Shown here: positions 31,822-62,444 of the stretch, one piece after another
Layout: each line of letters begins with the position of its first letter
How positions within the stretch are numbered: the stretch's first letter is position 1
NCBI GenBank assembly: GCA_027030245.1
Contig: JALVFE010000021.1
Coordinates: forward strand, 248,001 to 312,000
Length of the DNA stretch: 64,000 nucleotides
Origin: Melioribacteraceae bacterium
GTDB lineage: Bacteria > Bacteroidota > Ignavibacteria > Ignavibacteriales > Melioribacteraceae
Direction of reading: 5' to 3'
Notes under the pieces: model-generated
What the model was told of the DNA's origin: nothing
The model's database searches: none
The model's input: only the letters and a program-made list of their open reading frames with translations
Translations under genes and position numbers: made by a program

Positions 31822-31840
31822 TTTAATTTCCCTTTTATTT

Positions 31841-34837: not shown

Positions 34838-36349
34838 TTAAGGTAAAGCCGAGCTTTTATTTCTGTTGTTCCACGTTTTATTTCTGTCCGCTGCGTCTAC
34901 AACTCCGCTTAAATCAACATCGCTGGTTTCGTATCCGGATTTGTTTCTGTCATTCCATGTTGAGTTTCTGTCGCCCGCATCAACAACACCTGAACCGTCT
35001 GCATCCCCGCTCCACATTCCCCAAACACCGTTTTCCAATTGCACCGCTCCTCCGGTGCCGTAAAATTTTGATTCGCTTGTCGTAAAATCGTAAAGTTCCG
35101 AAGATGTTTTGTGCAATGTAATTTTATTTTTACTCATAACCGGCAAATGATTTCTATGTTTAATAACAACATAATAATCATTCTCTAATGCATTTAATTT
35201 TATTATTCCCGACGTTGCATCATCATTTACAATTCTACCGTCTTTATGTAAAAAGACACTTTTCGAAACTACAGCAGCGCCGTCCGGAGTTTCCCTTAAC
35301 TCGACCAAAACCCAATCAACAACATCGGAAGGAACAGATGAAACAGTATGTGAATCTTCAGGATATGGGGATTCAAGAGGTATGTTAGAATTTATATTAT
35401 TAAACATTTCATTATTTCCGGAATTATAAGCCCCTTCCAAAAAAACTTTTACTTGGAGTTGAACAAATTCCTTTCTAAAAACACGAACATAATCAATCAA
35501 AAAATAATCCGGCAAATCATCCGCATAATCCAAAATATTTTCATTCAATCCCCAAGCATCATCAGGCGGAGCGTCATATTCAATCGAAAGTATAATCGCT
35601 TGCGTAACATTTTGAGCAACACCTTGAGTGGTTGAAAAAACCGAATCGCCATCCAAATAATAAATGGCTTTATCTTTATACCATTCTACTCCGAATTTAT
35701 GATAATTTCCGTCTCTTAAATTTTTACCGTAGTCTGCGGCATAAACATATTTACCGACACTTGGGTCGTCATTCGGGTTCCAATGATTTGCAACATTAAA
35801 ATAATTAAGTGTATTACCGCCGTTAAGCAAAGCCGTCCAAGAGCCCGGAGCACCGTAACCAAGCGGATATTCCATAATATCCATTTCCGTTCCTGTTGCT
35901 GGATTACCGTCATAAGTGTTTGAAGGCGAGTATAACCAAAAAGCACACCATAAACCTCCCGCTACAAGTTCGGTAAATTTTATACTTGCTTCCATATAAG
36001 TTCCTTCTTCCGGTCCGAATAAAGTCCATTGCGATTGATCGACAGACCAATTATAAGTTTGAAGGTAGGATGTTTTTAAAGTATCGTTTTCCAATCTTGC
36101 GCGAATAACCAACTTTCCGTTTCCGTCCAAATAAGCATCGTTGTTGGTATAAACCGCATCACGCCATAAATGATTTTCATCTCCCCACGCATCAAAAAAA
36201 AACCAATGCGATGCAGGTTGCGAATTTGCCGGTCCGTCAAACTCATCACTCCAATCCAGTTTCCAATTACCTTCTGGCAAATAACTTTGAGAAAGTAAAT
36301 TTATTCCGGTAAGAAAATATACAAAACAAAAGAAATGTTTTATCCGCAT
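34838..36349 (-). CDS. Secreted GH16 beta-glucanase with dockerin-like module
   Basis: A 503-residue protein. The ATG at 36349 starts a signal peptide (MRIKHFFCFVYFLTGINLLS); the frame extends to 36436, but that part is the tail of a decayed module and is not natural coding sequence. The GH16 jelly-roll runs from about 27 to 290, with WSDEFDG at the start and the catalytic motif EMDIME at 155-160 (nucleophile Glu155, acid Glu160). IDYVRVF ends the domain. It acts on beta-1,3/1,4-glucans, laminarin or related galactans. The module follows from KVFLEGAYNSGNNEM, with loops DADGSGVVDAGD and DVDLSGVVDAAD. The 119-bp gap to the next gene holds no clear signal. Confidence 0.92.
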   Translation of the reverse strand: MRIKHFFCFVYFLTGINLLSQSYLPEGNWKLDWSDEFDGPANSQPASHWFFFDAWGDENHLWRDAVYTNNDAYLDGNGKLVIRARLENDTLKTSYLQTYNWSVDQSQWTLFGPEEGTYMEASIKFTELVAGGLWCAFWLYSPSNTYDGNPATGTEMDIMEYPLGYGAPGSWTALLNGGNTLNYFNVANHWNPNDDPSVGKYVYAADYGKNLRDGNYHKFGVEWYKDKAIYYLDGDSVFSTTQGVAQNVTQAIILSIEYDAPPDDAWGLNENILDYADDLPDYFLIDYVRVFRKEFVQLQVKVFLEGAYNSGNNEMFNNINSNIPLESPYPEDSHTVSSVPSDVVDWVLVELRETPDGAAVVSKSVFLHKDGRIVNDDATSGIIKLNALENDYYVVIKHRNHLPVMSKNKITLHKTSSELYDFTTSESKFYGTGGAVQLENGVWGMWSGDADGSGVVDAGDRNSTWNDRNKSGYETSDVDLSGVVDAADRNKTWNNRNKSSALP

Positions 36350-36419
36350 AGTTTTACAATAAAAATTTGTTTGCTTTACAATTATGATAAAAGTTACCAC
36401 TATATTTTTCAAAAAGAAA

Positions 36420-36793
36420 GGTTCATTTGCTGACAAATGATTCCTATGTTTTTATTACTATAAAATATTTATTTGGATGTACGTTTAATTCAATATCTTT
36501 GTTCGTCCCCTCCTCTGTTGAAGTTTCGTATTCACCTTCGGTATAAAATTTTGAAGTATTTGGGTATAATTCGTTGTTTTTCCCCATGGAATTTTCAAGT
36601 GTAGTTTTCAAATTCTCATCAACTTTCATGTTCGTCCGTTATCAGTACTTCGATAATATACGCTCACATCACTACCGACCATTATAATTCCGCTAGATCT
36701 TGCACCAGTAAATTTAAATACCAGATTCAAGTTGCATCCGATTATGAGTGAATTAAAGTAATCAAGCAGAAATAAAACAAAAATATATTTCAT
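36420..36793 (-). pseudogene. Internally deleted propeller-plus-module relic
   Basis: From an ATG at 36793 the minus strand reads a short secretion-like leader (MKYIFVLFLLDYF), then SGIIMVGSDVSVYYRSTDNG and a stop. That matches TGIIMVGSDLSGYYRSTDN near the start of the 28981-31821 propeller. After an overlapping ATG at 36629, 61 residues end with KDIELNVHPNKYFIVIK, matching the module. A frameshift then gives KHRNHLSANE, matching KHRNHLAVMSANT. Almost the whole propeller, the start of the module and its EF-hands are deleted. It directly follows the GH9 gene stop and accounts for most of the gap 36350-36823. Confidence 0.85.
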
Positions 36794-36823: not shown

Positions 36824-39310
36824 TCACGGTAATGTTGAACTTTTATTTCTGTTATTCCAAGTTTTATTTCTGTCCGCTGCGTCTACAACTCCGCTTAAAT
36901 CAACGTCACTATTTTCATAACCGGATTTGTTTCTGTCGTTCCATGTCGAGTTTCTGTCGCCCGCATCAACAACACCTGAACCATCTGCGTCTCCGCTCCA
37001 CATTCCCCAAACTCCGTTTTCAAGCTGAACAGTTCCCCCGTTGCCGTAGAACTGGGATTCGCTTGTTGTAAAATCATAAAGCGTTGAAGTTGTACTGTTA
37101 AGAGCAACTGTATTTGCGCTCATAACCGCCAAATGATTCCGGTGTTTAATTACAACATAATAATTTCCTTCGGGAACGTTTAACTCAATATCTTCGGTAG
37201 TTCCGTCATCATTGATTAATTTGCCGTTTTCATTTATGAAAACACTTTTGGAGATGATTGTACTTCCGCTTGGTGTCGTTCTTAATTGAAGCAAAACCCA
37301 ATCCACCGCTTCAACCGGTACGGTGTTTACCTGTCGCGGGTCTTCGCTGTAAGGCGATGTTGTTGGTATTTGAGAATTTAAAGTCAAGTTCATCTTATGC
37401 GAACTAACATCGTAAGCACCTTCGAGGAATATTTTCACTTGAAGTAATACATTACCGCTTGCTGTGCTAATAAACTTTGAAAGCAGTCTTGCAAAAGCAC
37501 TCTCGTAATAAATTGCATTTTCGGTTACTTCCCACGAGTTTTCGGGATAACTTGTATTCCAATCTTTATAAGACTTTTGCGGAGGTTGATTTTGCGGAGG
37601 TGCAATCGGTGGACCAGTATAATCCGCATCAGGTTGATAATTCTTATTCGGTCCTCCCGTTAATATTGCCGGAGCCGGTGATGTATCCCACACCGTTCCA
37701 TCTCCGAACCATTCGTGATAAACTTCACTAACCGAGTTTTCGAATCCGTAATTACTTAAATTAGATAAATAAGCATAAGCCGTGGGATTAACACCAAACA
37801 TGTAATGAATTATACTTACTGCCGCATCATTATAATTATCTTGATTCGAGGGATCAATCCCATAATAATTTGCGGAAGTATAAAGACTGGCTTGATCGCT
37901 TTTAATATGATTACTTCCCCAATCGTAATCGTCAGTAGGCAAATAAGCTCTGTATGCATCAACATTTTGTAAATGGTAATCGAGCCATTCTTTTACTTGC
38001 CTTTCGTAAGTAATAAGAACGTTATTAACCACGCTGCTTGTTGCATTCGGAGTTTTGGTATAATATAATAAAGCATCTTGATAAGGAACATCATAAGGAT
38101 TAAGGTAATCTTCGGTAAACATTCTCAATTCGGTATAATGCGCATCAACATAATCTCTATATTTGGTTTCTCCGGTTTTATAAAAAAGATAAACGGCAGA
38201 AAGCAACCTGTTAGCATATTGATCGTAAGATTCGTCTTCTGTTGCGGGATTTAGAAATCCTTGGTTATTATAATTGGAAGGGATTTTATCGGGATTTGCT
38301 TCTAACCATTCCCAAGCTTTTACAGCTCTACTTAATAACGTATCGGCATAAATTTGCATCGTAGAATTGTTAAGTGTAGAAAAAATAATCGATGCATGAG
38401 CAAAAGCACCGCACGTGGAAACAGTAGCCGAGGAAGTTGCTTCGGCGTAGCGTCTGGCTTCTACATCGTTGCTTGGCGGACTTGCAGTTGCCCAAGTAGT
38501 TACGGAAACTTTATGCAAAACCGAACCATCGCCAAGTTGCATTTTTAACAACCAATCGAGTTCCCATTTAACCTCGTCTATTATATCGGGAATCCCGTTA
38601 TTCGATTCCGGAATACCATAATCATCCGTCCATACTTGCGGTGCTTCTTCATAAGCCGAAAGTAAATCGTGAATTGCATTGTCTGCAGTGTTTGTGTATT
38701 TATTATAATCGCCGGCATCGTGCCAACCGCCCGATAAATCTTTAGATGTTGAAGGTGAAGTATCCAGAACCCAACGACAATCTGCATCTTGTTCGGCACC
38801 AACATGGCAAGCTGTTGGGTCTTCCCATTCCGTTTCCGCATAAGGTACCGCTTTTGCAATTCCGCATCGTTGATAATAAAATGTTCGCATTACTTGTCTC
38901 AAAATTTCCGTATAAACATTAACGGAGATTTTAAATGTGTACGAAGAAACATAATTGGCGACATCGTAAATGTAGTATTCGCCTTCCGCTGTTAAGTTGG
39001 AAAAATCGAACCACCATACTTGATCGCCCGATTGCGTATGGGTGGAACCGTTATTCCACGCTGTCAGGCTTCCAGTGAATACAACGCTGTTATCAGAAGC
39101 TTTTCTGACTTCGTAAGTGTTGCCGGGATTAAAATTTTCTCCGGAATTATAACCTGTTTTTGGATTTGAAATAATGGCTATCTTTTTTGAACTTGCAAGA
39201 TACCCTAATTGATTAACTTTAATGTGATTATCAATTGAGCCAGTTTGAGGGTAAATTCTTCCTAAACCGAGTGTTGAGAAGAAGAATAGAAATAGGATGA
39301 TTCTTCGCAT
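36824..39310 (-). CDS. Secreted GH9 endoglucanase with dockerin-like module
   Basis: An 828-residue protein with a signal peptide ending near IYPQ. An Ig-like CelD_N domain (IKVNQLGYLASSKKIAI) is followed by an (alpha/alpha)6 GH9 barrel to about residue 615. The catalytic base motif is GGWHDAGDYNKY (Asp198 and Asp201). The acid is probably the Glu in WEVTENAIYYESAF near residue 595. The enzyme cleaves beta-1,4-glucans such as cellulose or xyloglucan backbone. The module starts at KIFLEGAYDVSSHKM and has loops DADGSGVVDAGD and DVDLSGVVDAAD. In canonical cellulosomes, GH9 plus dockerin is the commonest enzyme architecture. Confidence 0.93.
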   Translation of the reverse strand: MRRIILFLFFFSTLGLGRIYPQTGSIDNHIKVNQLGYLASSKKIAIISNPKTGYNSGENFNPGNTYEVRKASDNSVVFTGSLTAWNNGSTHTQSGDQVWWFDFSNLTAEGEYYIYDVANYVSSYTFKISVNVYTEILRQVMRTFYYQRCGIAKAVPYAETEWEDPTACHVGAEQDADCRWVLDTSPSTSKDLSGGWHDAGDYNKYTNTADNAIHDLLSAYEEAPQVWTDDYGIPESNNGIPDIIDEVKWELDWLLKMQLGDGSVLHKVSVTTWATASPPSNDVEARRYAEATSSATVSTCGAFAHASIIFSTLNNSTMQIYADTLLSRAVKAWEWLEANPDKIPSNYNNQGFLNPATEDESYDQYANRLLSAVYLFYKTGETKYRDYVDAHYTELRMFTEDYLNPYDVPYQDALLYYTKTPNATSSVVNNVLITYERQVKEWLDYHLQNVDAYRAYLPTDDYDWGSNHIKSDQASLYTSANYYGIDPSNQDNYNDAAVSIIHYMFGVNPTAYAYLSNLSNYGFENSVSEVYHEWFGDGTVWDTSPAPAILTGGPNKNYQPDADYTGPPIAPPQNQPPQKSYKDWNTSYPENSWEVTENAIYYESAFARLLSKFISTASGNVLLQVKIFLEGAYDVSSHKMNLTLNSQIPTTSPYSEDPRQVNTVPVEAVDWVLLQLRTTPSGSTIISKSVFINENGKLINDDGTTEDIELNVPEGNYYVVIKHRNHLAVMSANTVALNSTTSTLYDFTTSESQFYGNGGTVQLENGVWGMWSGDADGSGVVDAGDRNSTWNDRNKSGYENSDVDLSGVVDAADRNKTWNNRNKSSTLP

Positions 39311-45713: not shown

Positions 45714-45787
45714 CTTTGTGATACCTCCTCCGACTACCGATAAATTTTATTTTAGTAGTGAATAACTAATGAATAATATGGGGTTAT

Positions 45788-46834: not shown

Positions 46835-46911
46835 TAGTATCCGCTAAAAATGGTCATTTATTTATTAAGACAAGTTGTAAGATTAAAATCTACTACTCAA
46901 AAAAAATTTTT

Positions 46912-47514
46912 TTATTGGAGTAATAAAAAGAGCAGTAAAAAATGGAAGGATTTAATTTTCGGATAATGCTTCATCATAAATTCAATTGCCTTAACCATGT
47001 GGTTTTGAACTGTATTGACAGAAATCGAAAGCAGTTCCGCTATTTCTTTGTATTTCAGTCCATAGATTCTATTTAGTCTGAAAATAAGTTGGCGCTTTGG
47101 TGGTAATTGTTGAATAAGCGATTCAATTGCGTTTTCAAGTTCCATTAAAGAAAGTTCGACGTGAGGGGAATTTTCCGAGATAATGTTCGATTCTTTTGGT
47201 AATTCGAAAAATGTTTCGTTTTTTCTTTGTTCGCGGATAAAATAATTTATTGAACGGTTGCGAACGGAAGTATAAAGATATGCTTTAAGATTTGTTTTTA
47301 TAACGATTTTTTTTCTGTTTACCCAAATATTTACAAATACATCCGAAACCACTTCTTCTGCCAAAGCGGTATTGCTGACATAAAACATAGAAAATTCACA
47401 TAACCTAAGGAAATACCGTTCAAACAGCGATTTCAATGCCCTGTTATTACCATCCTTAATCAATTCGAACAATTTGTCGTCGGTATATTTCGAAAAATCC
47501 CTTTTGAGCATCAT
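46912..47514 (-). CDS. ECF RNA polymerase sigma factor
   Basis: A 200-residue sigma-70 family protein of the Bacteroidota ECF group: region 2 with LCEFSMFYVSNTALAEEVVSDVFVNIW, a linker, and region 4 with PPKRQLIFRLNRIYGLKYKEIAELLSISVNTVQNHM as the helix-turn-helix. It lacks its own signal and should be held by the FecR protein until the receptor binds substrate. Its targets are likely the receptor operon and perhaps the dockerin-like enzyme genes. Its own promoter lies in 47515-47745. Confidence 0.94.
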   Translation of the reverse strand: MMLKRDFSKYTDDKLFELIKDGNNRALKSLFERYFLRLCEFSMFYVSNTALAEEVVSDVFVNIWVNRKKIVIKTNLKAYLYTSVRNRSINYFIREQRKNETFFELPKESNIISENSPHVELSLMELENAIESLIQQLPPKRQLIFRLNRIYGLKYKEIAELLSISVNTVQNHMVKAIEFMMKHYPKIKSFHFLLLFLLLQ

Positions 47515-47817: not shown

Positions 47818-49887
47818 TTATTGAACCGAGGAACTTTTATTTCTGTTGTTCCATGTTTTGTTTCTATCCGCAGCATCTACCACACCGCTTAAATCAACAT
47901 CGCTGTTTAGATAACCCGAATTGTTTCTGTCGTTCCATGTGGAATTTCTGTCGGCAGCATCAATTACACCCGAACCGTCTGCATCGCCTCCCCACATTCC
48001 CCAAACGCCGCTTTCCAATTGAACAGCCGACCCGGTTCCGTAGTATTTTGATTCCGAAGTTGTAAAATCGTATGTAACGGCAGTTGAAGTATTCAGAGTT
48101 ACCGGTGTGTTGCTCATAACCGCCAAATGATTACGATGCTTAATAACGATATAATAATTTCCTTCCGGCGCTCCCAATTCTATTGTATTGCTTAGTCCAT
48201 CGTCGGTGACAAGGTAACCGTCGTTTCTTAAAAATACGCTTCGCGATACTTTTGCTGTGCTATCCGGATGTTCTTTTAATTGTACCAATACCCAATCAAC
48301 AATATTTGCAGGAACAGAAACAATTCTACGAGGATTTTCAGAATAAGGCGAGGTTGTTGGGACTAACGAGTTTATATCCATTTTCATATTGTGGTTAGTT
48401 TGATCGTATGGTCCTTCCAAAAATATTTTTGCGGTAAGTTGCAACATAGGAATTTGATTCATCGCATCGAGCGCATTTATAACGCCCCATCCGTAAAGTC
48501 TATCGGGATTGGAGGAATGATCCGATGTTGCTCTTAAAATATCTCTTATTTGCATCGGAGTAATGTAATAATTTTTTTCGAGCATCAAAGCGCCAACACC
48601 GGCTGCTAACGGACATGCGGCGGATGTACCGCTAAAACTTCTGTAATATGTATCGGAACTATTCCCCGCCGCGTACGTACCCGAGCCCATTGCCATAAAA
48701 TCGGGTTTGGTTCTTCCATCCACCGTGTTACCGACACTACTGAAACTTGCCCTAACTTTATTAGCGTCAACCGCACCAATAGCAAAAACACTGTCGCCAT
48801 CAGCCGGAGCCATTAAAGTATTGTGCGTTGAATTATATCCTTCGTTACCGGCAGAATTAAATACAACAATTCCTTTTTTAACAGCGAGATCCGCGGCTAC
48901 CGTAATCTTAGCAGTATTACCGTCCATATCCGTCCAATCATAGCCCGTACCGTCATCGAAACCAAGATAACCAAGTGATGTGGAAAACAGATCGGCTCCG
49001 ATGCTGTCTGCCCATTCGGATGCGGCAATCCAGTTATCTTCCTCTACCGTGGTTTCCGATTCAGTATTTTCTGTTTTGGCTAAAAGATAACTCGCACCGA
49101 ATGACGTTCCTATAAGTTCCCCTTCTTTAAATCCTCCTATTAACGAAAGTGTCCCGGTTCCATGGGAACCGTTACCTGCATCCGAACCGTTTTCAACGTC
49201 CACATCGTTGTTTACAAAATCCCACGTTGCAATTACATTCATACTTTGAAATACTTCGTGAGTGGAAAGTCTATCAAAACCAGCATCCATTAAACAGATT
49301 AGAATTCCATGTCCGGTATATCCTTGATCGTGAACTTCGGGAACATTCATAATTTGCAATTGAGTTAAAGATTGCCCGTAATTATATATCGCAGTTGTAT
49401 TCTGTATGTTATCGATATTCTGTTGCTTTTGCACGGGAATATTATAATCTTTTTCTTTTCTTTTGTATGTGCGAACAAGATCAATCTCTTTAACAAAATC
49501 TAGTTTAGTAATTTTAGATAACAGCAACTTATCTATATAACAACTGACTCCGTTAAGCCATTTGGACTTTTGTTTAATTTTTATTCCGAATCTTTCTAAT
49601 TTATTAATATAATCCGAATTTAACGGAATATCGATAAAATCTATTAATGCGGATTCGGGTAAAACTTTTTTTCTTCTTTTTAAAGATCTTTCAGAAACAA
49701 CCGAAACAGGGTTAGCAAAATATTTTTCAAGATTACTTCCTTTATCGGTGAAGTAAACCCAAACTAAAAGTTTCGATTGTTCAGGTTTTGCCTGCAAATA
49801 AGTTGTTAAACTTTTTGATAATTTGCTTTGAGCATTTATGCTAATAGAAAAAGCAATAAGAATGAAAACAGCTTTTATAATTTTCAT
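47818..49887 (-). CDS. Secreted subtilisin-like protease (S8) with dockerin-like module
   Basis: A 689-residue protein. The ATG at 49887 starts the signal peptide MKIIKAVFILIAFSISINAQ; the longer frame to 49962 reads back through the neighbouring module. A propeptide of about 120 residues is followed by the S8 domain with catalytic Asp in ICLMDAGFD, His in GNGSHGTGTLSLIGG and Ser in FSGTSAACPLAAGVGAL. The module (KIFLEGPYDQTNHNM...) has loops DADGSGVIDAAD and DVDLSGVVDAAD. A dockerin-tagged protease may process other components of a surface complex; this is inference. Only 16 bp separate it from the upstream gene. Confidence 0.9.
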   Translation of the reverse strand: MKIIKAVFILIAFSISINAQSKLSKSLTTYLQAKPEQSKLLVWVYFTDKGSNLEKYFANPVSVVSERSLKRRKKVLPESALIDFIDIPLNSDYINKLERFGIKIKQKSKWLNGVSCYIDKLLLSKITKLDFVKEIDLVRTYKRKEKDYNIPVQKQQNIDNIQNTTAIYNYGQSLTQLQIMNVPEVHDQGYTGHGILICLMDAGFDRLSTHEVFQSMNVIATWDFVNNDVDVENGSDAGNGSHGTGTLSLIGGFKEGELIGTSFGASYLLAKTENTESETTVEEDNWIAASEWADSIGADLFSTSLGYLGFDDGTGYDWTDMDGNTAKITVAADLAVKKGIVVFNSAGNEGYNSTHNTLMAPADGDSVFAIGAVDANKVRASFSSVGNTVDGRTKPDFMAMGSGTYAAGNSSDTYYRSFSGTSAACPLAAGVGALMLEKNYYITPMQIRDILRATSDHSSNPDRLYGWGVINALDAMNQIPMLQLTAKIFLEGPYDQTNHNMKMDINSLVPTTSPYSENPRRIVSVPANIVDWVLVQLKEHPDSTAKVSRSVFLRNDGYLVTDDGLSNTIELGAPEGNYYIVIKHRNHLAVMSNTPVTLNTSTAVTYDFTTSESKYYGTGSAVQLESGVWGMWGGDADGSGVIDAADRNSTWNDRNNSGYLNSDVDLSGVVDAADRNKTWNNRNKSSSVQ

Positions 49888-49903
49888 TTTCACACCCAAT
49901 TGT

Positions 49904-51502
49904 TTAAGGTTTTTCGGAAAATTTATTTCTGTTGTTCCAGGTTTTATTTCTGTCTGCAGCATCCACCACTCCGCTTAAATCGACGTCAGTGTTTTCGTAT
50001 CCGGTTTTATTTCTGTTATTCCATGTCGAATTTCTGTCCGCTGCATCAATTACTCCGGAGCCATCGGAATCGCCGCACCACATTCCCCAAATCCCGGGTT
50101 CTAATTCCACAGCTCCGTTATTCCCGTAAAATTTATTTTTATTCGCGGTAAAATCATAAATGTTATTGTTCGGAATTGAAATACTGTCAGCCGATAGCAC
50201 GTCGAGATGAGTTCTATGAACAATTCCGATATAATAATTTCCATTTTGAACGTTAAATCTAACACCACTTAAACTATCCAAATCTATTACCACTCCGTCG
50301 ATATTAACGAAAGCAGCTCTTGTAGCAATTTTTGACGAATTATCCGGCGAAGAAAAGAGTTCTACCAATACCCAGTCAACTATATCCGGATGAAGCTCGC
50401 TTGCAAATTCACCTCCATTATAATTCCAAGGAGAATTATTATACGGTTGGCTTTTCGGTATAACACCCGCATTAAGCAAAGAAGAGTTCATAGCAGGAGA
50501 ATTGTAAGGTCCTTCCAAAAATATTTTTGCTTTTACAATAACAGGGAGTGAAGTAATTTGTGTTACCTGTTGATTGGCAGCAATCTGCAACGCAGCATGA
50601 ACTATATTCCAACTGTCAAGATTAATTTCATCGAAAGTCTGGTTTCCTGTATCCCAAGAAATATCATTTTCGTTAAAAAACTCAGAAAGATATAAATTAT
50701 CCACATCCGAATTAATTAATACCTCCGGATGATAAGAAAACAAAATTACCGTACCATTACCGTAATTATACTTAATGATTGTGGGCTCTCCCTCTCCGGT
50801 TGTAGCGTCGGCGGGAATACCGGAAGGAGCAATAGCATTTGCCCAAACTTCATATCCGGGTAATTGTGATTTAATATTAGTGAAAACCGGACCGCCATAA
50901 TAAAAAAACCTTGTTGTATCTGGCAAACCGATTGACTGCATTGTGGAATTGTTCAAATTTATATTAACCATTTGTAAACTAGGGTTTGTACCGTTTTGCC
51001 ATGGTTCCCAACCGAATGGGCCTTTTGCTACGCCATCGAATAAATTCAAATTGTAATCGGTATCGGAATAATCCGACGGTTGATTGTATTCTCCCCCGTT
51101 ACCGGTTGCAAACTCCGCCCAACTCAAAGTATCGGCAGCCCAATATGCACCGGCGCAAAATCCTATATAATTTCCTCCGCTGTTAACAAAGTTTCTAATA
51201 TTATCTTCGCCCGTTGGTGTAACGGCTAATTCCCTATATAAAGCATATCCACCCGGAGCAATCAAAGCTTTATATTTTCTGTTTGTTCCGCTCCCAAGGA
51301 TTCCTGTGTTAATATCAATATGATCTATGACTTCATAAGTCCAATTATATGTAACGAATAATGCTTTTAATGCTTTTACTTCTTCTTCCCATACGCCGTC
51401 ATTTTCGTATGAAGGATCGTACAGAGCGAAATCCGCATTATAATTTTGAGAGAATGAAATCCCGCTGATCAATATCCAAAATATGTATGTTATTTTTTTC
51501 AT
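49904..51502 (-). CDS. Secreted BPL_N/glutamine-amidotransferase-like protein with dockerin-like module
   Basis: A 532-residue protein. The ATG at 51502 is preferred over an upstream TTG at 51508 and begins signal peptide MKKITYIFWILISGISFSQ. Residues about 22-300 match the class I GATase-like fold of biotin-protein-ligase N-terminal (BPL_N) proteins: KALIAPGGYALY, VNSGGNYIGFCAGAYWAA with the would-be nucleophile Cys, and YHPEVL. The substrate is unknown. The module (KIFLEGPYNSPAMNSS...) contains WNYNGGE and loops DSDGSGVIDAAD and DVDLSGVVDAAD, so it belongs to the second module subgroup. Confidence 0.8.
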   Translation of the reverse strand: MKKITYIFWILISGISFSQNYNADFALYDPSYENDGVWEEEVKALKALFVTYNWTYEVIDHIDINTGILGSGTNRKYKALIAPGGYALYRELAVTPTGEDNIRNFVNSGGNYIGFCAGAYWAADTLSWAEFATGNGGEYNQPSDYSDTDYNLNLFDGVAKGPFGWEPWQNGTNPSLQMVNINLNNSTMQSIGLPDTTRFFYYGGPVFTNIKSQLPGYEVWANAIAPSGIPADATTGEGEPTIIKYNYGNGTVILFSYHPEVLINSDVDNLYLSEFFNENDISWDTGNQTFDEINLDSWNIVHAALQIAANQQVTQITSLPVIVKAKIFLEGPYNSPAMNSSLLNAGVIPKSQPYNNSPWNYNGGEFASELHPDIVDWVLVELFSSPDNSSKIATRAAFVNIDGVVIDLDSLSGVRFNVQNGNYYIGIVHRTHLDVLSADSISIPNNNIYDFTANKNKFYGNNGAVELEPGIWGMWCGDSDGSGVIDAADRNSTWNNRNKTGYENTDVDLSGVVDAADRNKTWNNRNKFSEKP

Positions 51503-51532
51503 TAACAAAATTCTACAGTGAAATTCAATGAT

Positions 51533-51575: not shown

Positions 51576-53798
51576 TTACGGTACTTGAGTCGATTTATTC
51601 CGGTTATTCCACGTAAAGTTTCTATCTGCCGCATCAACAATGCCGTTAAGGTCAACATCACTCACATTGTAACCGGAAATATTTCTGTCGTTCCAAGTAG
51701 AATTTCTGTCGTTTGCATCAATTGTTCCCGATGCATCGGCATCTCCGGCAATCATCCCCCAAACACCGCCGCCCAAATCTGCCGCACCGTTCGAGCCGTA
51801 AAATTGACCGCTTCCGGTTGTGAAATCGTAAGATGCCAAACTTGTTATGGAAAGTGAAACCGTCGTGGAACTCATAACCGATAAATGATTCCGGTGATGA
51901 ACAACAACATAATAATTACCGGGCTCAACTCCGAATCTTAGAGGGCTGGTTCCATCCAAGCCAACGATTGTACCATTACTGGTAATAAACGCAGCACGTT
52001 TTGCTACAGAAGTGGAAGCAGCCGTACCTGTTCTCAATTCCACCAGTACCCAATCCACAATGTCGGGATGATTTTCAAAAAAGTCGGCTATGCCGTTAGC
52101 GGGACTAACATCCACGGAATAAACCCTTTCGGCACCGTTGTAATTCCATGGAGCGGAAGTAAACGGTTGTGTTTCCGGAAGATAACCGTTACTGTTCAGC
52201 GTAGTGCTCATTGTTCCGGCGTTGTAGTTTCCTTCCAAAAATACTTTAATATTTAAATCGGAACCGAAAGTAAACGAACCGATTCTGGTTTTCCAAGGAG
52301 CGCTGCCTGTACTTTGAATATACTCGGTAGTATACCAAAATGTAGCATCGTCTATCGGATCGACCGACATCATGCTATAATCTCCCCATCTACCGGAAGA
52401 ATGTGTTTGAGAACCTCCTCCGGCTATAATTTCACCTTCGGTGATAGTCATTTGTCCAACCGGATCATTTTTATAACGTCCGGTGTATCTTATAGAAGGA
52501 TAGGTGGAACTGCTGGAAACCGAATAACCCAAAGCAATATTTCCGTACGCATCTAACGCTACGCTTCCCATCCACCGGTTTTCACCGTCGGTGGGAGCAT
52601 AAGTTCCTTGTTGATAAATCGACCAGCCAGAACCTGTGTTTCTCAGTTCGTACCATCTCATTCCCGCTCTGTTACTACCGGCATCAACACTATGGGAAAC
52701 AACCATTGCTTGATAATCATTGAAATTTCTATATTGCAAACGGAACATTAAGCGGTCCGAAAGACCGTCTAAACCTTGAGATGTACCCGGCTGCGGCACG
52801 GTTCCAAAATCCGGATCGAATGTTGCTGTATTCAACGAAAAAGCTTCGGCAAATGTTGAATTGGAAGTATTATTCCAATCTACATGGAACTCCCAAAATC
52901 TCAACCGGTCAGGAGATTGATCATAAAACGTAAAGTAGTTCGGTGCTCCGGTCGGAGGATCAATGTTACCGTCCCAATCCGAAGGAAGCATACTTCCAGC
53001 ATTTGACTCGCTAAAAAATACCATTCTTGCATTTCCGCCAACTAACATGGAATCCCTTTCTAATGCAGCTGCGCCTGCGCCGGCAAAGAAAGCTCCGTTG
53101 ACAAATTGATTGACGGATAAATAATAACCGTCGGGCCAAATTCCGAATTTCGGATAATCGGGCATATTGGAAAATTCAAATGCATACCGATACCAAGCAC
53201 CTGTCGGATCTCCCGTTTGAGAGATTGCCACCAATTCATAATATGGGCCAAAAGGATAGTTGGGTAAAGAAAACTGGCTGATTAACCAACGATCTACTGT
53301 GTGGTCATATAATACAACCGGATCACCGTCGTTGGTACCTTCCCAAGGTCCTGTAAAACCATCCCAGATTGTACTCAGGTCGGCCGGACCGTATAACGAA
53401 TTACCGTTTTTGTCCCAGATTTGAAATGATAAATTTACTGTTTGTACATAATGTTCGGGTCCAACATCGCCTTGAGTATCGGGAGGAAGAACACCGTTAA
53501 TGTTTTCCACTCCATCCCAATCAACTATTTTTTTTGACTCTTGGGTTGCAAGCGGAATGCTTTGTGTGACAGGGTCCTTATATCCTTTTTGAACCCTCGG
53601 TTTTGGTTTTCTAAAACCAAACTTATTCGGAATTGATTTCCAAGAACGTTTAACCGAACCGGGCGGAATTAACCGCATATTTCTCAATTCGATTGTTTTA
53701 TCGTGTTTTACAGCATATTTTACAATTGGTCTATTACTTATATTTTGTGCAAATAAGAAATTAACCGAAAGTAAAAGTATTCCAATAAGTCTCAACAT
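51576..53798 (-). CDS. Secreted protein of unknown function with dockerin-like module
   Basis: A 740-residue protein with signal peptide (MLRLIGILLLSVNFLFAQ). Residues about 80-510 contain VLPPDTQGDVGPEHYVQ, SFQIWDKNGNSLYGPAD, DGDPVVLYDHTVDRWL, MPDYPKFGIWPDGYYL and GRWGDYSMMSVDPIDDATFWYTTEY. The Trp/Tyr/Asp-rich pattern suggests a beta-propeller or sandwich, but I recognise no family. The C-terminal module (KVFLEGNYNAGTM, PWNYNGAERV) has loops DADASGTIDAND and DVDLNGIVDAAD. It is a close paralogue of the next gene upstream, 20 bp away. A role in binding insoluble substrate is only a guess. Confidence 0.75.
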   Translation of the reverse strand: MLRLIGILLLSVNFLFAQNISNRPIVKYAVKHDKTIELRNMRLIPPGSVKRSWKSIPNKFGFRKPKPRVQKGYKDPVTQSIPLATQESKKIVDWDGVENINGVLPPDTQGDVGPEHYVQTVNLSFQIWDKNGNSLYGPADLSTIWDGFTGPWEGTNDGDPVVLYDHTVDRWLISQFSLPNYPFGPYYELVAISQTGDPTGAWYRYAFEFSNMPDYPKFGIWPDGYYLSVNQFVNGAFFAGAGAAALERDSMLVGGNARMVFFSESNAGSMLPSDWDGNIDPPTGAPNYFTFYDQSPDRLRFWEFHVDWNNTSNSTFAEAFSLNTATFDPDFGTVPQPGTSQGLDGLSDRLMFRLQYRNFNDYQAMVVSHSVDAGSNRAGMRWYELRNTGSGWSIYQQGTYAPTDGENRWMGSVALDAYGNIALGYSVSSSSTYPSIRYTGRYKNDPVGQMTITEGEIIAGGGSQTHSSGRWGDYSMMSVDPIDDATFWYTTEYIQSTGSAPWKTRIGSFTFGSDLNIKVFLEGNYNAGTMSTTLNSNGYLPETQPFTSAPWNYNGAERVYSVDVSPANGIADFFENHPDIVDWVLVELRTGTAASTSVAKRAAFITSNGTIVGLDGTSPLRFGVEPGNYYVVVHHRNHLSVMSSTTVSLSITSLASYDFTTGSGQFYGSNGAADLGGGVWGMIAGDADASGTIDANDRNSTWNDRNISGYNVSDVDLNGIVDAADRNFTWNNRNKSTQVP

Positions 53799-53818: not shown

Positions 53819-56116
53819 CTAATTAGGAACAGTAGTCGATTTGTTTCTATTGTTCCACGTTAAATTTCTATCAGCTGCATCAACAACACCGCTTAAATCG
53901 ACATCGCTTGTTTGATATCCGCTGTTGTTTCTATCGTTCCATGTTGAATTTCTATCGCCCGCATCAACAACTCCGGAAACATCGGCGTCACCTGCAATCA
54001 TCCCCCAAACACCGCCGCCTAAATCTGCCGCGCCACCCGAACCGTAAAACTGAGAAGATCCGGTGGTAAAATCGTAAGAAGCAACGGTCGAATTTGAAAG
54101 GGATACCATAGATGAACTCATTACCGAAATATGATTTCGGTGATGAACTACAACATAATAGCTACCAGGCATAACACCTAAACGTAAAGGACTTGTTCCA
54201 TCCAAACCAACAATTGTACCGTCACTTTTAACAAAACCCGCTCTTTTTGCAACAACCGAACTTGCTGCAGTTCCGGATCGTAATTCTATGAGAACCCAAT
54301 CAACGATATTGGGATTATTGTCAAAGAAATCAGCCTTACCGTTTGCATCGGCATCAACTAATGATACTTTCTCGGATCCGTTATAATTCCAAGGAGCAAC
54401 ATTGTACGGTTGGCTTGTCGGTAAATCACCATTACTATTTAAAGTTGTAGACATCGACCCCGAATTATAATTTCCTTCTAAAAATACTTTTAAGTTTAAG
54501 TCGCTGCCAAATGTAAAAGATGCAATACGAGTTTGCCAGTTAGCATCGCCTGTTGTCTGAACATATTCGGTGGTATACCAGAAAGTTGCTCCGTCAATAG
54601 GATCAACAGACATTGCGCTGTAATCCCCCCATCGTGAGAAGAAAGATGTTTGCGAACCGCTACCATCAATAATTGTTTGTTCGGCAACTGATATGGTGCC
54701 GAGCGGATCATCTTTCATTCTTCCGGCATAACGAATCGAGGGATATACAGATTTACTCGATACCGAATATCCCAATGCTATATTACCATATTCATCCATC
54801 GCCACACTTGCCATCCATCTGTTTTCGGCATCGGGTGCGTAAGTACCTTGTTGATAAATACTCCAACCCGAGCCTGAATTTCTTAATTCGTACCATCTTA
54901 CACCGGCATGATCGGTGCCATCTACATCAACAGTATGATTTGTAACAAGAGTTTGGTAATCACCGAAATTACGATACTGCAATCTGAACATCACCCTGTT
55001 AGATAATGCATCTAAACCTATATTGGTATTGGGTTGATCAATATGGCTTCTTCCCGAAATATTACTCGAAGTAAATTGATAATCGAACGGTGCGGTTGTT
55101 AAGTCGGTTACATGTGAAAATGTTGAGTTGGACGGATTATTCCAGTCGGTTGAAAATTCCCAAATCGATAAATGGTCAGTGGAATAACCCATTCCGTCGT
55201 CTCCCATGTAAATAAAATAGTTAGGAGTTCCATCAGGAGGAGGCGTTCCGTCAAAATCAGAGGGTAACATTCTTACCGCATAAGGATTTGAGGTAAAATC
55301 GAGTTTGAATATTTGCATAGTAGCGGTTGAATCGCCGACCAACATTTTATCTCTTTCAAAAACAACGGCATCAACACCTCTGTAACTTCCGCTAAAGGCT
55401 ACCGTTGATAAATAATATCCGTCATTCCAAATTCCGAACTTCGGATAATCCGGCATATCCTGAAATTCAAAACCGTACCGGTACCACGAGCCCGTTGGGT
55501 CGCCGGTTTCTGTAATGGCAAGCAACATGTAATACGGAGGTGTACTGCTTCCATTGGGTAATGAAAACTGCGTAAATAACCATCTATCAGCTTCTTCGTC
55601 GTATAATACAATCGGGTCTCCATCATTAGTTCCGTCCCACGGATCACCAAAACCATCCCACAAAGTGGAATTATCTGCCGGACCATATAAAGAATTTCCG
55701 TTTTTATCCCAAATTTGGAAAGATAAATTTAACATTTGTACATAATGGTTAGGACCAACATCTCCGTCTGTATCGGGTGGTAATACATGGTTGATATTGC
55801 CAATCCCCTCCCAGTTTTTTAACGGGGAAAGTTGCTGGAATGAATTCCCCATTGTTTTTTGTAGAACAGGATCTTCACCAATAGGTAATGATCCCGGTTT
55901 TTTATCTTTCACGGGGTCATCAAAGTTCGGAATAACATATAAACCTTTACCTCTGAAAACCGAAGCTGGATCGATTGGCGGTATTTCTCTCAACGGTCGT
56001 GTTTTATCAAATTTAACTGCTTTTACGACTATCGGATTTGTATAAATTTGCTTTTGTCCATGCGCAGTAATTTGTGCAAACAAAATAACTGCGAGTAAAA
56101 GTAATCCTTTCCTCAT
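53819..56116 (-). CDS. Secreted protein of unknown function with dockerin-like module, paralogue
   Basis: A 765-residue protein with signal peptide (MRKGLLLLAVILFAQITAHGQ). It shares the whole architecture of the downstream gene: VLPPDTDGDVGPNHYVQ, SFQIWDKNGNSLYGPAD, DGDPIVLYDEEADRWLFTQFS, MPDYPKFGIWNDGYYLS, SRWGDYSAMSVDPIDGATFWYTTEY. The module (KVFLEGNYNSGSM, PWNYNGSEKV) has loops DADVSGVVDAGD and DVDLSGVVDAAD. The two genes are a tandem duplication, presumably one transcript ending at 51533. The function is unknown; the repeated ISQTGDPTG/ITETGDPTG-type segments suggest a repeat fold. Confidence 0.75.
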   Translation of the reverse strand: MRKGLLLLAVILFAQITAHGQKQIYTNPIVVKAVKFDKTRPLREIPPIDPASVFRGKGLYVIPNFDDPVKDKKPGSLPIGEDPVLQKTMGNSFQQLSPLKNWEGIGNINHVLPPDTDGDVGPNHYVQMLNLSFQIWDKNGNSLYGPADNSTLWDGFGDPWDGTNDGDPIVLYDEEADRWLFTQFSLPNGSSTPPYYMLLAITETGDPTGSWYRYGFEFQDMPDYPKFGIWNDGYYLSTVAFSGSYRGVDAVVFERDKMLVGDSTATMQIFKLDFTSNPYAVRMLPSDFDGTPPPDGTPNYFIYMGDDGMGYSTDHLSIWEFSTDWNNPSNSTFSHVTDLTTAPFDYQFTSSNISGRSHIDQPNTNIGLDALSNRVMFRLQYRNFGDYQTLVTNHTVDVDGTDHAGVRWYELRNSGSGWSIYQQGTYAPDAENRWMASVAMDEYGNIALGYSVSSKSVYPSIRYAGRMKDDPLGTISVAEQTIIDGSGSQTSFFSRWGDYSAMSVDPIDGATFWYTTEYVQTTGDANWQTRIASFTFGSDLNLKVFLEGNYNSGSMSTTLNSNGDLPTSQPYNVAPWNYNGSEKVSLVDADANGKADFFDNNPNIVDWVLIELRSGTAASSVVAKRAGFVKSDGTIVGLDGTSPLRLGVMPGSYYVVVHHRNHISVMSSSMVSLSNSTVASYDFTTGSSQFYGSGGAADLGGGVWGMIAGDADVSGVVDAGDRNSTWNDRNNSGYQTSDVDLSGVVDAADRNLTWNNRNKSTTVPN

Positions 56117-58611: not shown

Positions 58612-59799
58612 TTACTTCATTAAAATCATTTTCTTAATTTGAGTAAAATTACCGGCTTGCAATCGGTATATATAAATACCGTTGCTCAATTGAGATGCAT
58701 CAAATCTAACGCTATGGAACCCTGCTTCCATTTTGCGGTCGAGCAACGTAGCAACTTTTTCGCCCAGCACGTTATATACATCGAGTTTTACATTGCGGGT
58801 TTCCGGTAACGTAAATCTGATGTTCGTCGAAGGATTGAATGGGTTCGGATAGTTTTGCAATAATTCAAATTTATTTGGTTTAACTTCAACGTTAATTTCA
58901 TCGGAATATTCAAAACTTCCATCTATATCCAATATTTTCAATCTATAAACAAATTTGGTACCGCCAACCAAATTTTTATCAACGAAAGTATAGGTTCTTG
59001 GCGAATTACTGTTACCAGCGCCTTCTACAAAACCTACTTTAGTCCAGTTATTATTTTCGGCTTTCTTTTGAATCTCGTATCCGTAACTGTTAACCTCGGT
59101 GGCGCTTTTCCATACTAATTTAACTGCGCTTCCCTGTACTTTTGCAGAAAACGATGTCAATTCAACCGGTAACGGAACGTCATCCGGATTAACTGCATTT
59201 ATATTTGCTGCACTACCGTTGAAAGTAACGGGATCGAGAGAAAATACTTGTGTTACAGTACCGCTACCGCTTGTTTTCCACTGTAATCCGGCAGTTCCGG
59301 AAGTATTTGAGATTCCGGTGATTTTAAATCTACCTAATCTATGCGTAGATGCTTGCTCATCAATTTTAGCTACTCTGCCGTCAAAAGCTGTTTGATCTGA
59401 AGGAGTAGGTCCGTTTAGATTTATAATTATTTCATTACCGTTTAACTCTGGCGATGTATTATCATAATAATTGATTCTCGTAATTTCGGTGTTACTTCCG
59501 CTTGGGTCCGAAGGGACAAAAGTACAATAACCATAAGAGACACCGGCTTGCGGTTCTTTAGATATTGTAGGATTTGTGAAATTATCGACATTAAAAGTTA
59601 AAACAAAATCCGCATTTCCCAAATACAATGGGTTAGACGGTGCAGAAGTAGCTTGAAGGTATATATCGAAGAAGAAATCGCTACCCACCACGTTTTGGTT
59701 TTCCACTGTTAAAGTAACATCCACTTGTGCAGTTGAATATGTGAAATTACCGAATAGTAACACAAACAGAGCTACAAAGATTGTTAATTTAGTTTTCAT
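58612..59799 (-). CDS. T9SS-sorted surface protein with cohesin-like N-terminal domain (candidate)
   Basis: A 395-residue protein with signal peptide ending YSTAQ. Residues about 25-205 form one beta-rich domain with the pattern VGSDFFFDIYLQAT...YLGNADFVLTFNVDNF...LGRFKITGISN. It resembles the opening strands and hydrophobic rhythm of cohesin/CBM-type sandwiches (VGDxxxVxVxxxN...GADFxLxYDP...). Residues 210-305 are FN3-like, and 315-395 are a T9SS type A sorting tail (NYPNPFNPSTNIRFTLP, final IKKMILMK). There is no dockerin-like module. Sitting among twelve module-bearing genes, it is the best local candidate for their surface receptor. The cohesin assignment is by eye and uncertain; similar domains may simply be structural in T9SS proteins. 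Confidence 0.6.
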   Translation of the reverse strand: MKTKLTIFVALFVLLFGNFTYSTAQVDVTLTVENQNVVGSDFFFDIYLQATSAPSNPLYLGNADFVLTFNVDNFTNPTISKEPQAGVSYGYCTFVPSDPSGSNTEITRINYYDNTSPELNGNEIIINLNGPTPSDQTAFDGRVAKIDEQASTHRLGRFKITGISNTSGTAGLQWKTSGSGTVTQVFSLDPVTFNGSAANINAVNPDDVPLPVELTSFSAKVQGSAVKLVWKSATEVNSYGYEIQKKAENNNWTKVGFVEGAGNSNSPRTYTFVDKNLVGGTKFVYRLKILDIDGSFEYSDEINVEVKPNKFELLQNYPNPFNPSTNIRFTLPETRNVKLDVYNVLGEKVATLLDRKMEAGFHSVRFDASQLSNGIYIYRLQAGNFTQIKKMILMK

Positions 59800-59840: not shown

Positions 59841-62444
59841 TTATGGTAATTGACTGTTTTTATTTCTGTTATTCCAAGTTATATTTCGGTCTCCAGCATC
59901 TGTTACTCCCGATAAATCGACATCGCTGTCTTCGTAACCGGTTTTGTTTCTATCGTTCCATGTTGCGTTTCTATCTCCGGCATCAACAACACCGGATTGA
60001 TCAGCATCACCGGAAATCATTCCCCAAACATTTGTCTCAAGTTCAATTGCCCCACCTGTTCCATAAAATTGGGAAGATGATGCAGTAAAATCATAAAGAG
60101 ACGATGTTGTGCCATTAAGAGACACACTATTCGCACTCATAACAGCAAGATGATTTCTGTGTTTTATCACAATGTAGTAATTTCCGTCCGAAACGGGCAT
60201 TTCTATCACTCCGGAGGAAGCATCATCATTTACTATCCTGCCATCCTTATGTAATAACGCACTTTTTGATGCAACTGCCGTGCCATTAAATGTTTCCCTT
60301 AATTCAACTAGAACCCAATCCACTACATCAGCCGGAATTGAAGATATTGTTCTTACATCTTCGCTATATGGAGAAGTTGTAGGAATATAATCGTTATCAT
60401 TCAAGTTTGTATTCATAATACTGTTATTAACGTCGTATGGTCCTTCCAAAAAGATTTTAGTTTCCACTAAAACTTTTGCTTCATATCCGATTGCGAATTC
60501 AGAAAAGGAATTAACTCCCGTGGAAAAAATTGTGTTACCAATTATATCGGTATTAACCGGTGTCCATGAGGAAGAACTATTTACCCTTTTCAAAATTACA
60601 ACATTCTCGGCACTTAATCCAGAGGGCAAATTAGAAGCATCAAAATAAACCGTTGCGGTAAAATTTCCTGTTAAACCGCTTTCGGTAATTGACCAATATC
60701 TATCGTTTACAACAGCATTAGGAGTAACGGAATTTCCTCCCGGATTTGTTGCCGAACTTCCGTCGAAAGTGCCGCCCGGATCGGAATTGAATTTTTCAAC
60801 TGTTAATGTGCCTCCGTCTCCGTCCGTATTCGACGTGAATTCGACCGCTGCTTTTGTGTTCCCGAATAAATACATAAAATTTTGATTCGGAATGACAGAA
60901 GCAGATACATTTAAATCGCCTTGTTTAAATCTCATAATTTTATTTGGGGGTAAATCTGTCATTGAATTTGTTGTAGCCGGACCAGGCCACTTAATGCTTG
61001 CCGTATTAATTTTATTTGCGTCGCCCAAACCAAAATGAGTCCTCAAATCGTTGTGACTGCCTCTTCCGGATTGGGAAGAAACATCACGGATTTGGGTATA
61101 TGTATTTGAGTTAATAGTTGCATTAACTTTAACCAAAGCCCCAATTGCTTTTGAATTTGTTGTAATACCGTCGCCTATAGCTTCGATTTCCACCCAGTTA
61201 TTTGAATTACCGTTATTGATAAACAGACGGTTAGGCCCTTCGCGCCCCATCATCAAATCCAAATCACCATCATTGTCAACGTCTGCCCATGCGGCGCTTC
61301 GCGCAAAATCGTTATCAATCGTTAGAGTTGTACTATTATCGTAAGTAAATACCCCACTTCCGTCGTTATTATACAAACGACATCTATATCCGTCGGAATA
61401 CTTTCCGTCATTTCCTACAAATAAATCCAAATCTCCGTCGTTATCGTAGTCGCCGAAAGCGGAAGCATAAGAAAAATCGACATCGGTAATTAAAGGACCA
61501 ACGCCAGATGTTATATGTACCAAAGTACCGTTATCATTTCTAAAAAGATCGTTTGCGCGCGGATTTCCGTTATCATCGCCACCACTGACCAAATAAAGGT
61601 CTAAATCGCCATCGTTGTCAATATCCCCCCAACTTGCGCCTTGAACGGGCTTCCCATCTGTACTTCCGGAATTTAGTAAAACAACGGCAGTAAAATTGAA
61701 ATCGGGGCTTCCATCGTTAACATACAATATGTTTCTTTTATATTCCGTTCCGGATGCTACAAAGATGTCCATATCGCCATCTTCATCAAAATCGGCAAAC
61801 GTAAGCCCTGCCCTTTTTGTATCTTCCGTGGTGGTGAAATTATTTGTTACTTCCGTAAATGATACTGGTATAGAGCCGTTACTTTTATATAAAAAATTAC
61901 TAGCTGCGGTACCGGGCCAAACATTCTGATTGCTTGTTGCAGCATCTAAGAATCCGTCATTATTATAATCAAGCCACGCCACCGCACCCGAGGAAGTGCT
62001 TTGGGTTTTTACAATATCGCCAACGCTTGCGGTAGTTTCCTTGGTGAACGTTTCATTTCCGTTATTCGTATGAAGACTGTTAGGGGAAGGTGATGTACCG
62101 GAACCGGGATTAACATTCGCAATGTAAAGATCGAGATATCCGTCGTTATCATAATCTCCCCAAGACGAACCGCCTGAAACATACTTTTCGGTAACAATAT
62201 CACCTGCCGTACTTACGGAATCGAAGGTTCCGTCTCCATTGTTTTTGTATAAAAATCCTTCCCATTGATAATTTTGTAAGCCGTTTGAGAGGTAAAGATC
62301 AACATACCCGTCATTGTTGAAATCGCCCCATACAGTTCCCCAGGTAACATATTTGCCAAAATTTTCCTGAGGATTCTGAAATTGTTGAGCAAAAATTTGC
62401 CCAGTGATACATAGAATTACAAAAAAAACGTAAAAATTTTTCAA
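59841..62444 (-). CDS. Secreted FG-GAP/UnbV-ASPIC protein with dockerin-like module
   Basis: An 867-residue protein with signal peptide (MKNFYVFFVILCITGQIFAQ). It starts at TTG (62442-62444) with a well-spaced GGAGG ribosome site and no better ATG. FG-GAP/VCBS repeats with calcium-loop motifs (DFNNDGYVDLYLSNG, DYDNDGYLDLYIAN, DFDEDGDMDIFVASG, DIDNDGDLDLYLVSG) form a propeller. An ASPIC/UnbV domain follows (RGSHNDLRTHFGLGD), then a beta domain and the module (KIFLEGPYDVNNSIM...). The EF-hand loops are DADQSGVVDAGD and DVDLSGVTDAGD. It is probably an adhesive or glycan-binding surface component. Confidence 0.85.
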   Translation of the reverse strand: MKNFYVFFVILCITGQIFAQQFQNPQENFGKYVTWGTVWGDFNNDGYVDLYLSNGLQNYQWEGFLYKNNGDGTFDSVSTAGDIVTEKYVSGGSSWGDYDNDGYLDLYIANVNPGSGTSPSPNSLHTNNGNETFTKETTASVGDIVKTQSTSSGAVAWLDYNNDGFLDAATSNQNVWPGTAASNFLYKSNGSIPVSFTEVTNNFTTTEDTKRAGLTFADFDEDGDMDIFVASGTEYKRNILYVNDGSPDFNFTAVVLLNSGSTDGKPVQGASWGDIDNDGDLDLYLVSGGDDNGNPRANDLFRNDNGTLVHITSGVGPLITDVDFSYASAFGDYDNDGDLDLFVGNDGKYSDGYRCRLYNNDGSGVFTYDNSTTLTIDNDFARSAAWADVDNDGDLDLMMGREGPNRLFINNGNSNNWVEIEAIGDGITTNSKAIGALVKVNATINSNTYTQIRDVSSQSGRGSHNDLRTHFGLGDANKINTASIKWPGPATTNSMTDLPPNKIMRFKQGDLNVSASVIPNQNFMYLFGNTKAAVEFTSNTDGDGGTLTVEKFNSDPGGTFDGSSATNPGGNSVTPNAVVNDRYWSITESGLTGNFTATVYFDASNLPSGLSAENVVILKRVNSSSSWTPVNTDIIGNTIFSTGVNSFSEFAIGYEAKVLVETKIFLEGPYDVNNSIMNTNLNDNDYIPTTSPYSEDVRTISSIPADVVDWVLVELRETFNGTAVASKSALLHKDGRIVNDDASSGVIEMPVSDGNYYIVIKHRNHLAVMSANSVSLNGTTSSLYDFTASSSQFYGTGGAIELETNVWGMISGDADQSGVVDAGDRNATWNDRNKTGYEDSDVDLSGVTDAGDRNITWNNRNKNSQLP

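Follow-up and report, generated by a model that had tools for sequence, protein, structure and literature searches.

A candidate single-cohesin receptor with a T9SS tail for X-dockerin-like modules in a Melioribacteraceae bacterium

Most known assemblies of the cellulosome type are those of Gram-positive anaerobes. The closest described counterparts of the locus treated here are the type II cohesin and X-dockerin pairs of clostridial cellulosomes (CipA, ScaA and relatives), in which, as is predicted here, a cohesin-fold receptor is matched by an X domain followed by a two-F-hand dockerin. In the clostridial pair it is the scaffoldin that bears the X-dockerin, and an SLH protein serves as anchor, whereas in our locus a predicted X-dockerin is carried by each enzyme-type protein and the anchor candidate has a T9SS tail; the likeness is also remote, with 12 to 19% identity in the structural alignments and no Pfam match. 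A further comparison is offered by OlpA and OlpC of C. thermocellum (3ul4 and 4dh2), single-cohesin anchors that take enzyme-borne dockerins and that are both among the structural matches of the domain described below. Those proteins are SLH anchored in a Gram-positive cell, and the dockerins of their enzymes have no X module.

For Candidatus Stygibacter (Cloacimonadota), passages of PMC8542988 describe a cohesin scaffoldin of 3,755 residues, found via InterPro domains, with tandem cohesins, CBM2/CBM3 domains and a C-terminal domain proposed to serve surface attachment (a T9SS review is cited), together with enzymes that have C-terminal dockerins. By contrast, the protein considered here has 395 residues and a single cohesin-like domain that is unseen by Pfam, it is encoded behind the gene of its presumed partner, and X precedes the dockerin. 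In Melioribacter roseus, a cultured member of the family of our source genome, sections of PMC3534657 link cellulase activity to the cell surface; they report cellulases with neither dockerin nor scaffoldin domains, and an absence of cellulosomal structures. Literature searches on cohesins or dockerins in Melioribacter, the Ignavibacteria group, Bacteroidetes or Saprospiraceae, or in connection with T9SS, gave no title or abstract describing such a system among the matches listed, in a literature where subscription papers are little covered.

By a criterion given in part of PMC11557425, a cellulosome requires one or more multi-cohesin proteins and also a glycoside hydrolase with a dockerin; a word search of that text found no Bacteroidota system, and the relevant part of PMC11700989 places cellulosomes only in its two endospore-forming strains. 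Our source genome has two genes with one cohesin each of the type described here (alignment A4) and one match to the Pfam cohesin family PF00963 over the cut-off, and we saw no tandem cohesins or multi-cohesin protein in it, where a divergent one could be missed. The system is not classed as a cellulosome. As a separate observation, the only Pfam cohesin over the cut-off in this genome belongs to an 850-aa protein with repeats and a T9SS-like end (L079 5289-7838, G000:C30).

The window, by which we mean the whole stretch of 64,000 nucleotides that was analyzed, contains the candidate receptor gene on its minus strand. This ORF opens with ATG and translates into 395 aa (P0001), and the opposite, plus strand has many stops across 58612..59799. 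The parts of the gene are as follows.

58612..59799, minus strand: cohesin-like receptor gene, 395 aa, with signal peptide, cohesin-fold domain, fn3-like domain and T9SS type A tail (from the ORF, domain matches and predicted fold)
59728..59799, minus strand: putative signal peptide, residues 1-24 (translation, by eye)
59173..59727, minus strand: predicted cohesin-fold domain, residues 25-209, about 185 residues (AlphaFold2 and structural matches, given below)
58885..59169, minus strand: fn3-like domain, residues 211-305 (PF00041, E 0.00039, below the cut-off; matches of the C-terminal half)
58624..58851, minus strand: T9SS sorting tail, residues 317-392 (PF18962)

The T9SS tail, which the first-pass annotation had asserted, is well founded: Por_Secre_tail (PF18962) matches residues 317-392 at E 6.5e-13, with 49.2 bits against a cut-off of 27, and TIGR04183 matches at E 1.7e-11. 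With a signal peptide, recognized by eye, and a C-terminal sorting domain, P0001 has both features of T9SS type A cargo, and since SprA is encoded in the source genome (E 1.5e-47), the tail can work there. T9SS cargo may be released instead of being anchored, and the tail of P0001 argues for export, not for lasting attachment. BLAST comparison within the genome sets the two halves of the protein apart, the C-terminal half being common to many T9SS proteins and the N-terminal domain not. The stretches in the latter that had suggested a cohesin rhythm are VGSDFFFDIYLQ (residues 38-49) and GNADFVLTFN (residues 61-70).

By sequence, the cohesin likeness of this domain, judged by eye in the first-pass annotation, found no backing in Pfam, NCBIfam or the PDB. 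Neither Pfam nor NCBIfam has a family that covers it; a phmmer search of PDB sequences gave weak and unrelated matches (best E 0.36), and a profile of 34 relatives found no related PDB sequence (best E 0.3). No Pfam family is common to these relatives, and PF00963, which is a diagnostic and not a biological definition, matches neither P0001 nor any of the 34. In the predicted structure, the claim was confirmed. An AlphaFold2 model built on the 34-row alignment A4 reached pLDDT 82.4 and pTM 0.81; its one weak stretch is formed by model residues 63-80. Foldseek placed the R. flavefaciens ScaC cohesin 5lxv on top (E 1.4e-5, TM 0.50-0.55); three chains reached E 0.001 or below, the last of them belonging to a cellulase that has a carbohydrate-binding domain. 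VIA-align filled rows 1-40 of its 50 with cohesins or modules like them, at Z 10.9-8.6 over 120-144 residues; one of these is 2o4e, whose title is that of a protein-protein interaction module. Below them come N-termini of GH20 proteins (Z 8.3, 7.9 and 7.7), CBM3 (7.7) and integrins (7.7). The predicted fold of the domain thus lies within the cohesin/CBM group and is the cohesin jelly roll, so that the outcome which the first-pass annotation had named as a refutation, a confident assignment elsewhere, did not arise.

The receptor gene lies inside a cluster of module-bearing genes and has no module itself, as the first-pass annotation had it. Twelve of the window's proteins have the module at their C terminus, where it spans 207-227 residues with 52-87% identity to the first row of an alignment of all 12. 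Directly upstream of the receptor gene, after a gap of 41 bp, is one such module-ending gene (59841-62444); the downstream neighbor of the receptor gene (56176-58506) encodes a subtilase with a T9SS tail. The predicted X-dockerin modules are listed by position.

59844..60470, minus strand: module of gene 59841-62444 (FG-GAP/ASPIC protein), directly upstream of the receptor gene
53822..54502, minus strand: module of gene 53819-56116 (no Pfam family)
51579..52259, minus strand: module of gene 51576-53798 (no Pfam family)
49907..50539, minus strand: module of gene 49904-51508 (BPL_N domain)
47821..48441, minus strand: module of gene 47818-49962 (subtilase S8)
36827..37447, minus strand: module of gene 36824-39310 (glycosyl hydrolase family 9, GH9, E 2.7e-58)
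34841..35461, minus strand: module of gene 34838-36436 (GH16-like, slightly below the Pfam cut-off)
31844..32464, minus strand: module of gene 31841-34717 (sortilin/BNR repeats)
28984..29604, minus strand: module of gene 28981-31899 (sortilin/BNR repeats)
26273..26893, minus strand: module of gene 26270-28417 (right-handed beta-helix)
22897..23517, minus strand: module of gene 22894-25764 (GH67 N-terminus and DUF4838)
20363..21010, minus strand: module of gene 20360-22840 (GDSL lipase/acylhydrolase and laminin-G-like)

The two BNR-repeat proteins (31841-34717 and 28981-31899) are putatively GH74-like. At E 0.001, none of the 12 proteins has a Por_Secre_tail. In 80 loci retrieved with the module as the sole query, no Y[PF]NP pattern was seen behind it. 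Several smaller features of the cluster were also recorded. The listed starts of two ORFs (28981-31899 and 47818-49962) fall within a region that looks like the tail of a module gene read in a different frame, and their true starts are probably later Met codons ahead of the signal peptide. An X-domain fragment at 26046-26246 (profile positions 7-73, in an 88-aa frame) sits beside a complete module gene and is perhaps the remnant of another copy. Also inside the cluster, at 42504-47514, are genes that by eye resemble a TonB-type outer-membrane receptor, FecR and an ECF sigma factor, a possible substrate sensor.

That these C-terminal tails are dockerin-like, another claim of the first reading, agrees with both their predicted fold and the repeat anatomy of X-dockerin dyads. 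The Pfam dockerin family PF00404, itself only a diagnostic, matched none of four scanned modules and had no match over the cut-off in the source genome. For the fold, we used the closest relative, G008, in which a module gene reads through naturally into the cohesin gene in a shared frame (locus L077), so that one linked AlphaFold2 model could be built (62-row alignment, 9 rows linked). The module part (residues 1-208) has pLDDT of 85-98 by blocks of ten and contains two short helices, each behind a loop. Eight of the first nine PDB structure matches pair residues 1 to 203-209 with type II X-dockerin chains (4wi0, 4u3s, 4fl4, 3kcp, 5m0y, 5g5d, 2b59 and 5k39), at Z 9.9-11.2 over 139-147 residues and 12-19% identity, led by 4wi0_B (Z 11.2, 3.7 A, 144 residues, 19% identity). 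The remaining one of the nine and the lower rows match the cohesin half, which also dominates the Foldseek matches of the linked model. By predicted fold, then, the module is an X-dockerin. An engineered cyanovirin dimer, which had come up as a match to the module in a PDB sequence search (E 0.0012), was dropped, the fold search having given X-dockerins.

The repeats were compared in 32 modules with a cohesin-like neighbor. Position 12 of the F-hand-like loop is Asp in both repeats of all 32, and position 1 is Asp in 27 of 32 first repeats and in all 32 second repeats. Over the ten residues from position 12 on, identity is 0.606 between the two repeats of one module versus 0.272 between modules (10,000 permutations, p 1e-4). 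The modules thus carry two duplicated F-hand-like loops, putatively for calcium. In known dockerins, internal repeat symmetry of this kind is the basis of dual binding.

Module matches in the source genome number 23, of which 17 reach the dockerin repeats. Fifteen of these are of the DRNxxWNxRN type, namely, the 12 of the window and those on contigs C38, C35 and C16, and for this reason P0001 is taken as the candidate receptor for up to 15 proteins. The other two are a module of SDKD type on C20, beside a cohesin-like gene of its own, and one of VLDN type on C13. The divergent pair on C20 probably serves its own dockerin type, and the repeat types of the modules vary (DRNxxWN, SDK, ADY, VLDY and DDF). 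Four genes of the source genome have the X domain only (L040, L041, L042 and L044). On C20, we also noticed a separate ORF of 132 aa, flanked by an X-only gene and the genome's second cohesin-like gene, that by eye has a signal peptide of its own and that encodes the dockerin half only (L076 5697-6092, G000:C20). Programmed frameshifting was considered for module genes split between X and dockerin (G034:C116 and G000:C20) and was set aside in both cases, as the C20 case is a second ORF with a signal peptide of its own and the G034:C116 case shows a change of frame but in a fragmented assembly.

The position of the receptor gene behind a module gene recurs elsewhere. The matches listed include 60 cohesin-like genes that differ in sequence (E 1e-8 or better; one further gene was excluded for lack of flank). 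Directly upstream of 36 of them, and on the same strand, lies a module, and without the five seed genes (those of the window, C20, G008, G034 and G003) the count is 31 of 55. The other 24 of the 60 have no module within 700 bp upstream, three of them being second genes behind a first with a module. An approach from the opposite side used the 80 loci found by module alone, over which, as over all loci examined, the cohesin-like profile was iterated. This gave 25 ORFs with a cohesin-like domain. Of these, 21 follow the module directly, three lie further downstream and one is the module's own ORF. The 21 direct cases, out of 83 modules with room for one, come from Kapaibacterium, Saprospiraceae, Flavobacteriales, Bacteroidales, Ignavibacteria, Calditrichota, Cloacimonadota and unclassified bacteria. 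No cohesin-like ORF of these 80 loci lies upstream or on the other strand (77 kb of upstream versus 232 kb of downstream sequence), and the upstream absence carries less weight as a control than it first suggests, because only 35 of 85 modules had at least 700 bp upstream of the ORF. Across all loci examined, and within 700 bp, 69 cohesin-like genes have a module directly upstream, four have one directly downstream and none has one on the opposite strand.

Presence and absence in the family point the same way. Modules that reach the dockerin repeats, by profile range, occur in 12 of 79 genomes of the family, and the cohesin-like domain was found in 9 of 79 by profile versus 3 of 79 by single-sequence search. 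A cohesin-like match is present in 8 of the 12 genomes with dockerin repeats versus 1 of the 67 without (Fisher p 1.6e-7, uncorrected for relatedness); two of the eight, G003 and G034, had supplied seed sequences found by position. The single match in a genome without dockerin-repeat modules (G039) is weak, at E 4.7e-4. At E 0.001, the four repeat-bearing genomes without a cohesin-like match are G031, G032, G035 and G037, and G037 has a weak local one directly behind its module. Two genomes of the same genus as the source, G006 and G007 (91% and 95% complete), have no cohesin-like match, and all 11 of their module matches have stopped by profile position 145 of 207, short of the repeats. Receptor and repeats are thus missing together in these two, with X kept at the C terminus. 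In the inspected loci (L052, L054, L065, L066, L074 and L075), the protein stops directly ahead of the repeats or at the end of X, and the same truncation affects both module matches of G047 (locus L051), likewise a genome with no cohesin-like match.

Distances across 32 cohesin/module pairs, compared by Mantel test with 1,000 permutations, separate the two halves of the module. Cohesin and dockerin distances correlate with rho 0.61, and with 0.59 given the X distance (p 0.001 for both), whereas cohesin and X correlate at only 0.19 (p 0.037) and X and dockerin at 0.22, though they share a polypeptide. Against the repeat helices alone, rho is 0.37, lower than against the whole dockerin. In the 23 pairs with a standard tail, the cohesin-dockerin value given the C-terminal part of the receptor is 0.69 (p 0.001), with some correlation contributed by lineage (cohesin-tail 0.45, dockerin-tail 0.33). 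Cohesin divergence tracks the dockerin half and hardly the X domain.

Taken with the predicted folds, the gene order, co-occurrence and dockerin-specific co-divergence support a link between the cohesin-like domain and the modules, and with it the single-cohesin receptor idea from which this study started. We consider it very probable that the gene encodes a single-cohesin, T9SS-tailed receptor for module-bearing proteins, a one-socket surface-display system for plant cell-wall enzymes. The receptor would be exported via T9SS and then held at the outer surface, or released, and its cohesin domain may bind the C-terminal X-dockerin modules of up to 15 secreted proteins, with GH9, GH16-like, the two BNR-repeat proteins, GH67N/DUF4838, GDSL esterase, subtilase and others as partners. 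Binding would probably involve calcium and could occur in two orientations, the latter probable because the two repeats are near-copies. With one cohesin per receptor, the outcome would be display and not a multi-enzyme particle, simpler than a cellulosome. Complex prediction, a check proposed in the first-pass annotation and run on the linked G008 pair, did not bear it out: each half is confident and their mutual position is not, so that with pTM 0.55 docking is not predicted with confidence.

Other explanations need to be set against this. The jelly-roll fold is shared with carbohydrate-binding modules, and the N-terminal domain might be one of the CBM2/CBM3 group that fixes the cell to cellulose and is in the operon for that purpose, as the CBM3 chains at Z 7.7, the Foldseek chain with cellulase catalytic and carbohydrate-binding parts (E 1.0e-3) and the plant cell-wall enzymes among the neighbors could suggest. 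Cohesins rank higher, however, filling rows 1-40, and a carbohydrate-binding module would have no reason to recur behind dockerin-bearing genes or to diverge in step with the dockerin repeats and not with the X domain of the same polypeptide, which makes this explanation very improbable. We find it just as hard to believe that the domain is a cohesin for other partners, with the modules binding, for example, T9SS or a surface polysaccharide and the neighborhood reflecting a shared operon only. A gene order that recurs across families and phyla, a co-divergence specific to the dockerin half, and the two genomes, G006 and G007, in which the receptor is unmatched and none of 11 module matches reaches the repeats, all run counter to it. 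In its favor are the failure of the linked model to dock, the 4 of 12 family genomes that have dockerin repeats but no cohesin-like match and, among the matches listed, the 24 of 60 cohesin-like genes that do not directly follow a module.

A different possibility accepts the binding and adds a role in export: the cohesin protein, with its T9SS tail, might ferry enzymes that have no such tail through the T9SS pore, or else retain them in the periplasm. The distribution of tails would suit it, as the receptor has a Por_Secre_tail where the 12 module proteins have none at E 0.001, and Y[PF]NP is likewise missing behind the modules of the 80 module-first loci; X-only proteins nevertheless persist in genomes without a cohesin-like match, and we judge such a role unlikely.

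The one-socket display that we favor would explain how tail-less enzymes stay at the surface in such bacteria and would make many loci annotatable, there being at least 578 relatives of the module in one scan. Genome surveys rest on cohesin and dockerin domain models, and both partners here lie below the Pfam models. Cohesin-like matches at E 0.001 were found in at least 75 of 391 genomes of the class and 25 of 392 of the phylum, and modules in 175 of the 391. A broader proposal, possible though doubtful, is that Bacteroidota and neighboring phyla hold a large unrecognized cohesin/X-dockerin world in which tail-less enzymes carry an X-dockerin and X, or the dockerin bound to a T9SS-tailed cohesin partner, is the ticket through T9SS, export and display being one act. 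X domains alone at C termini in receptor-less genomes could point to a separate, export role of X, and the export of tail-less enzymes becomes a testable question. If the pairing holds, the varied repeat types could supply protein assembly with new plug-and-socket pairs.

More elaborate architectures occur among the relatives. Two cohesin-like domains and a partial C-terminal X-dockerin are combined in proteins of G235, G248, G367 and G376 (L287, L288, L252 and L281), and one protein of G139:C44 has both a cohesin-like domain and a module. Among the matches listed, cohesin-like domains also lie in very long frames of 3,487-4,051 aa in four genomes. The genes for the proteins at L287, L288, L252 and L281 are followed by another small module gene, and the proteins may be adaptor scaffoldins. 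Eight genomes (G139, G231, G162, G209, G253, G190, G167 and G224) gave 74-140 first-look module candidates each, with seven scored per genome, and perhaps have very large dockerin repertoires.
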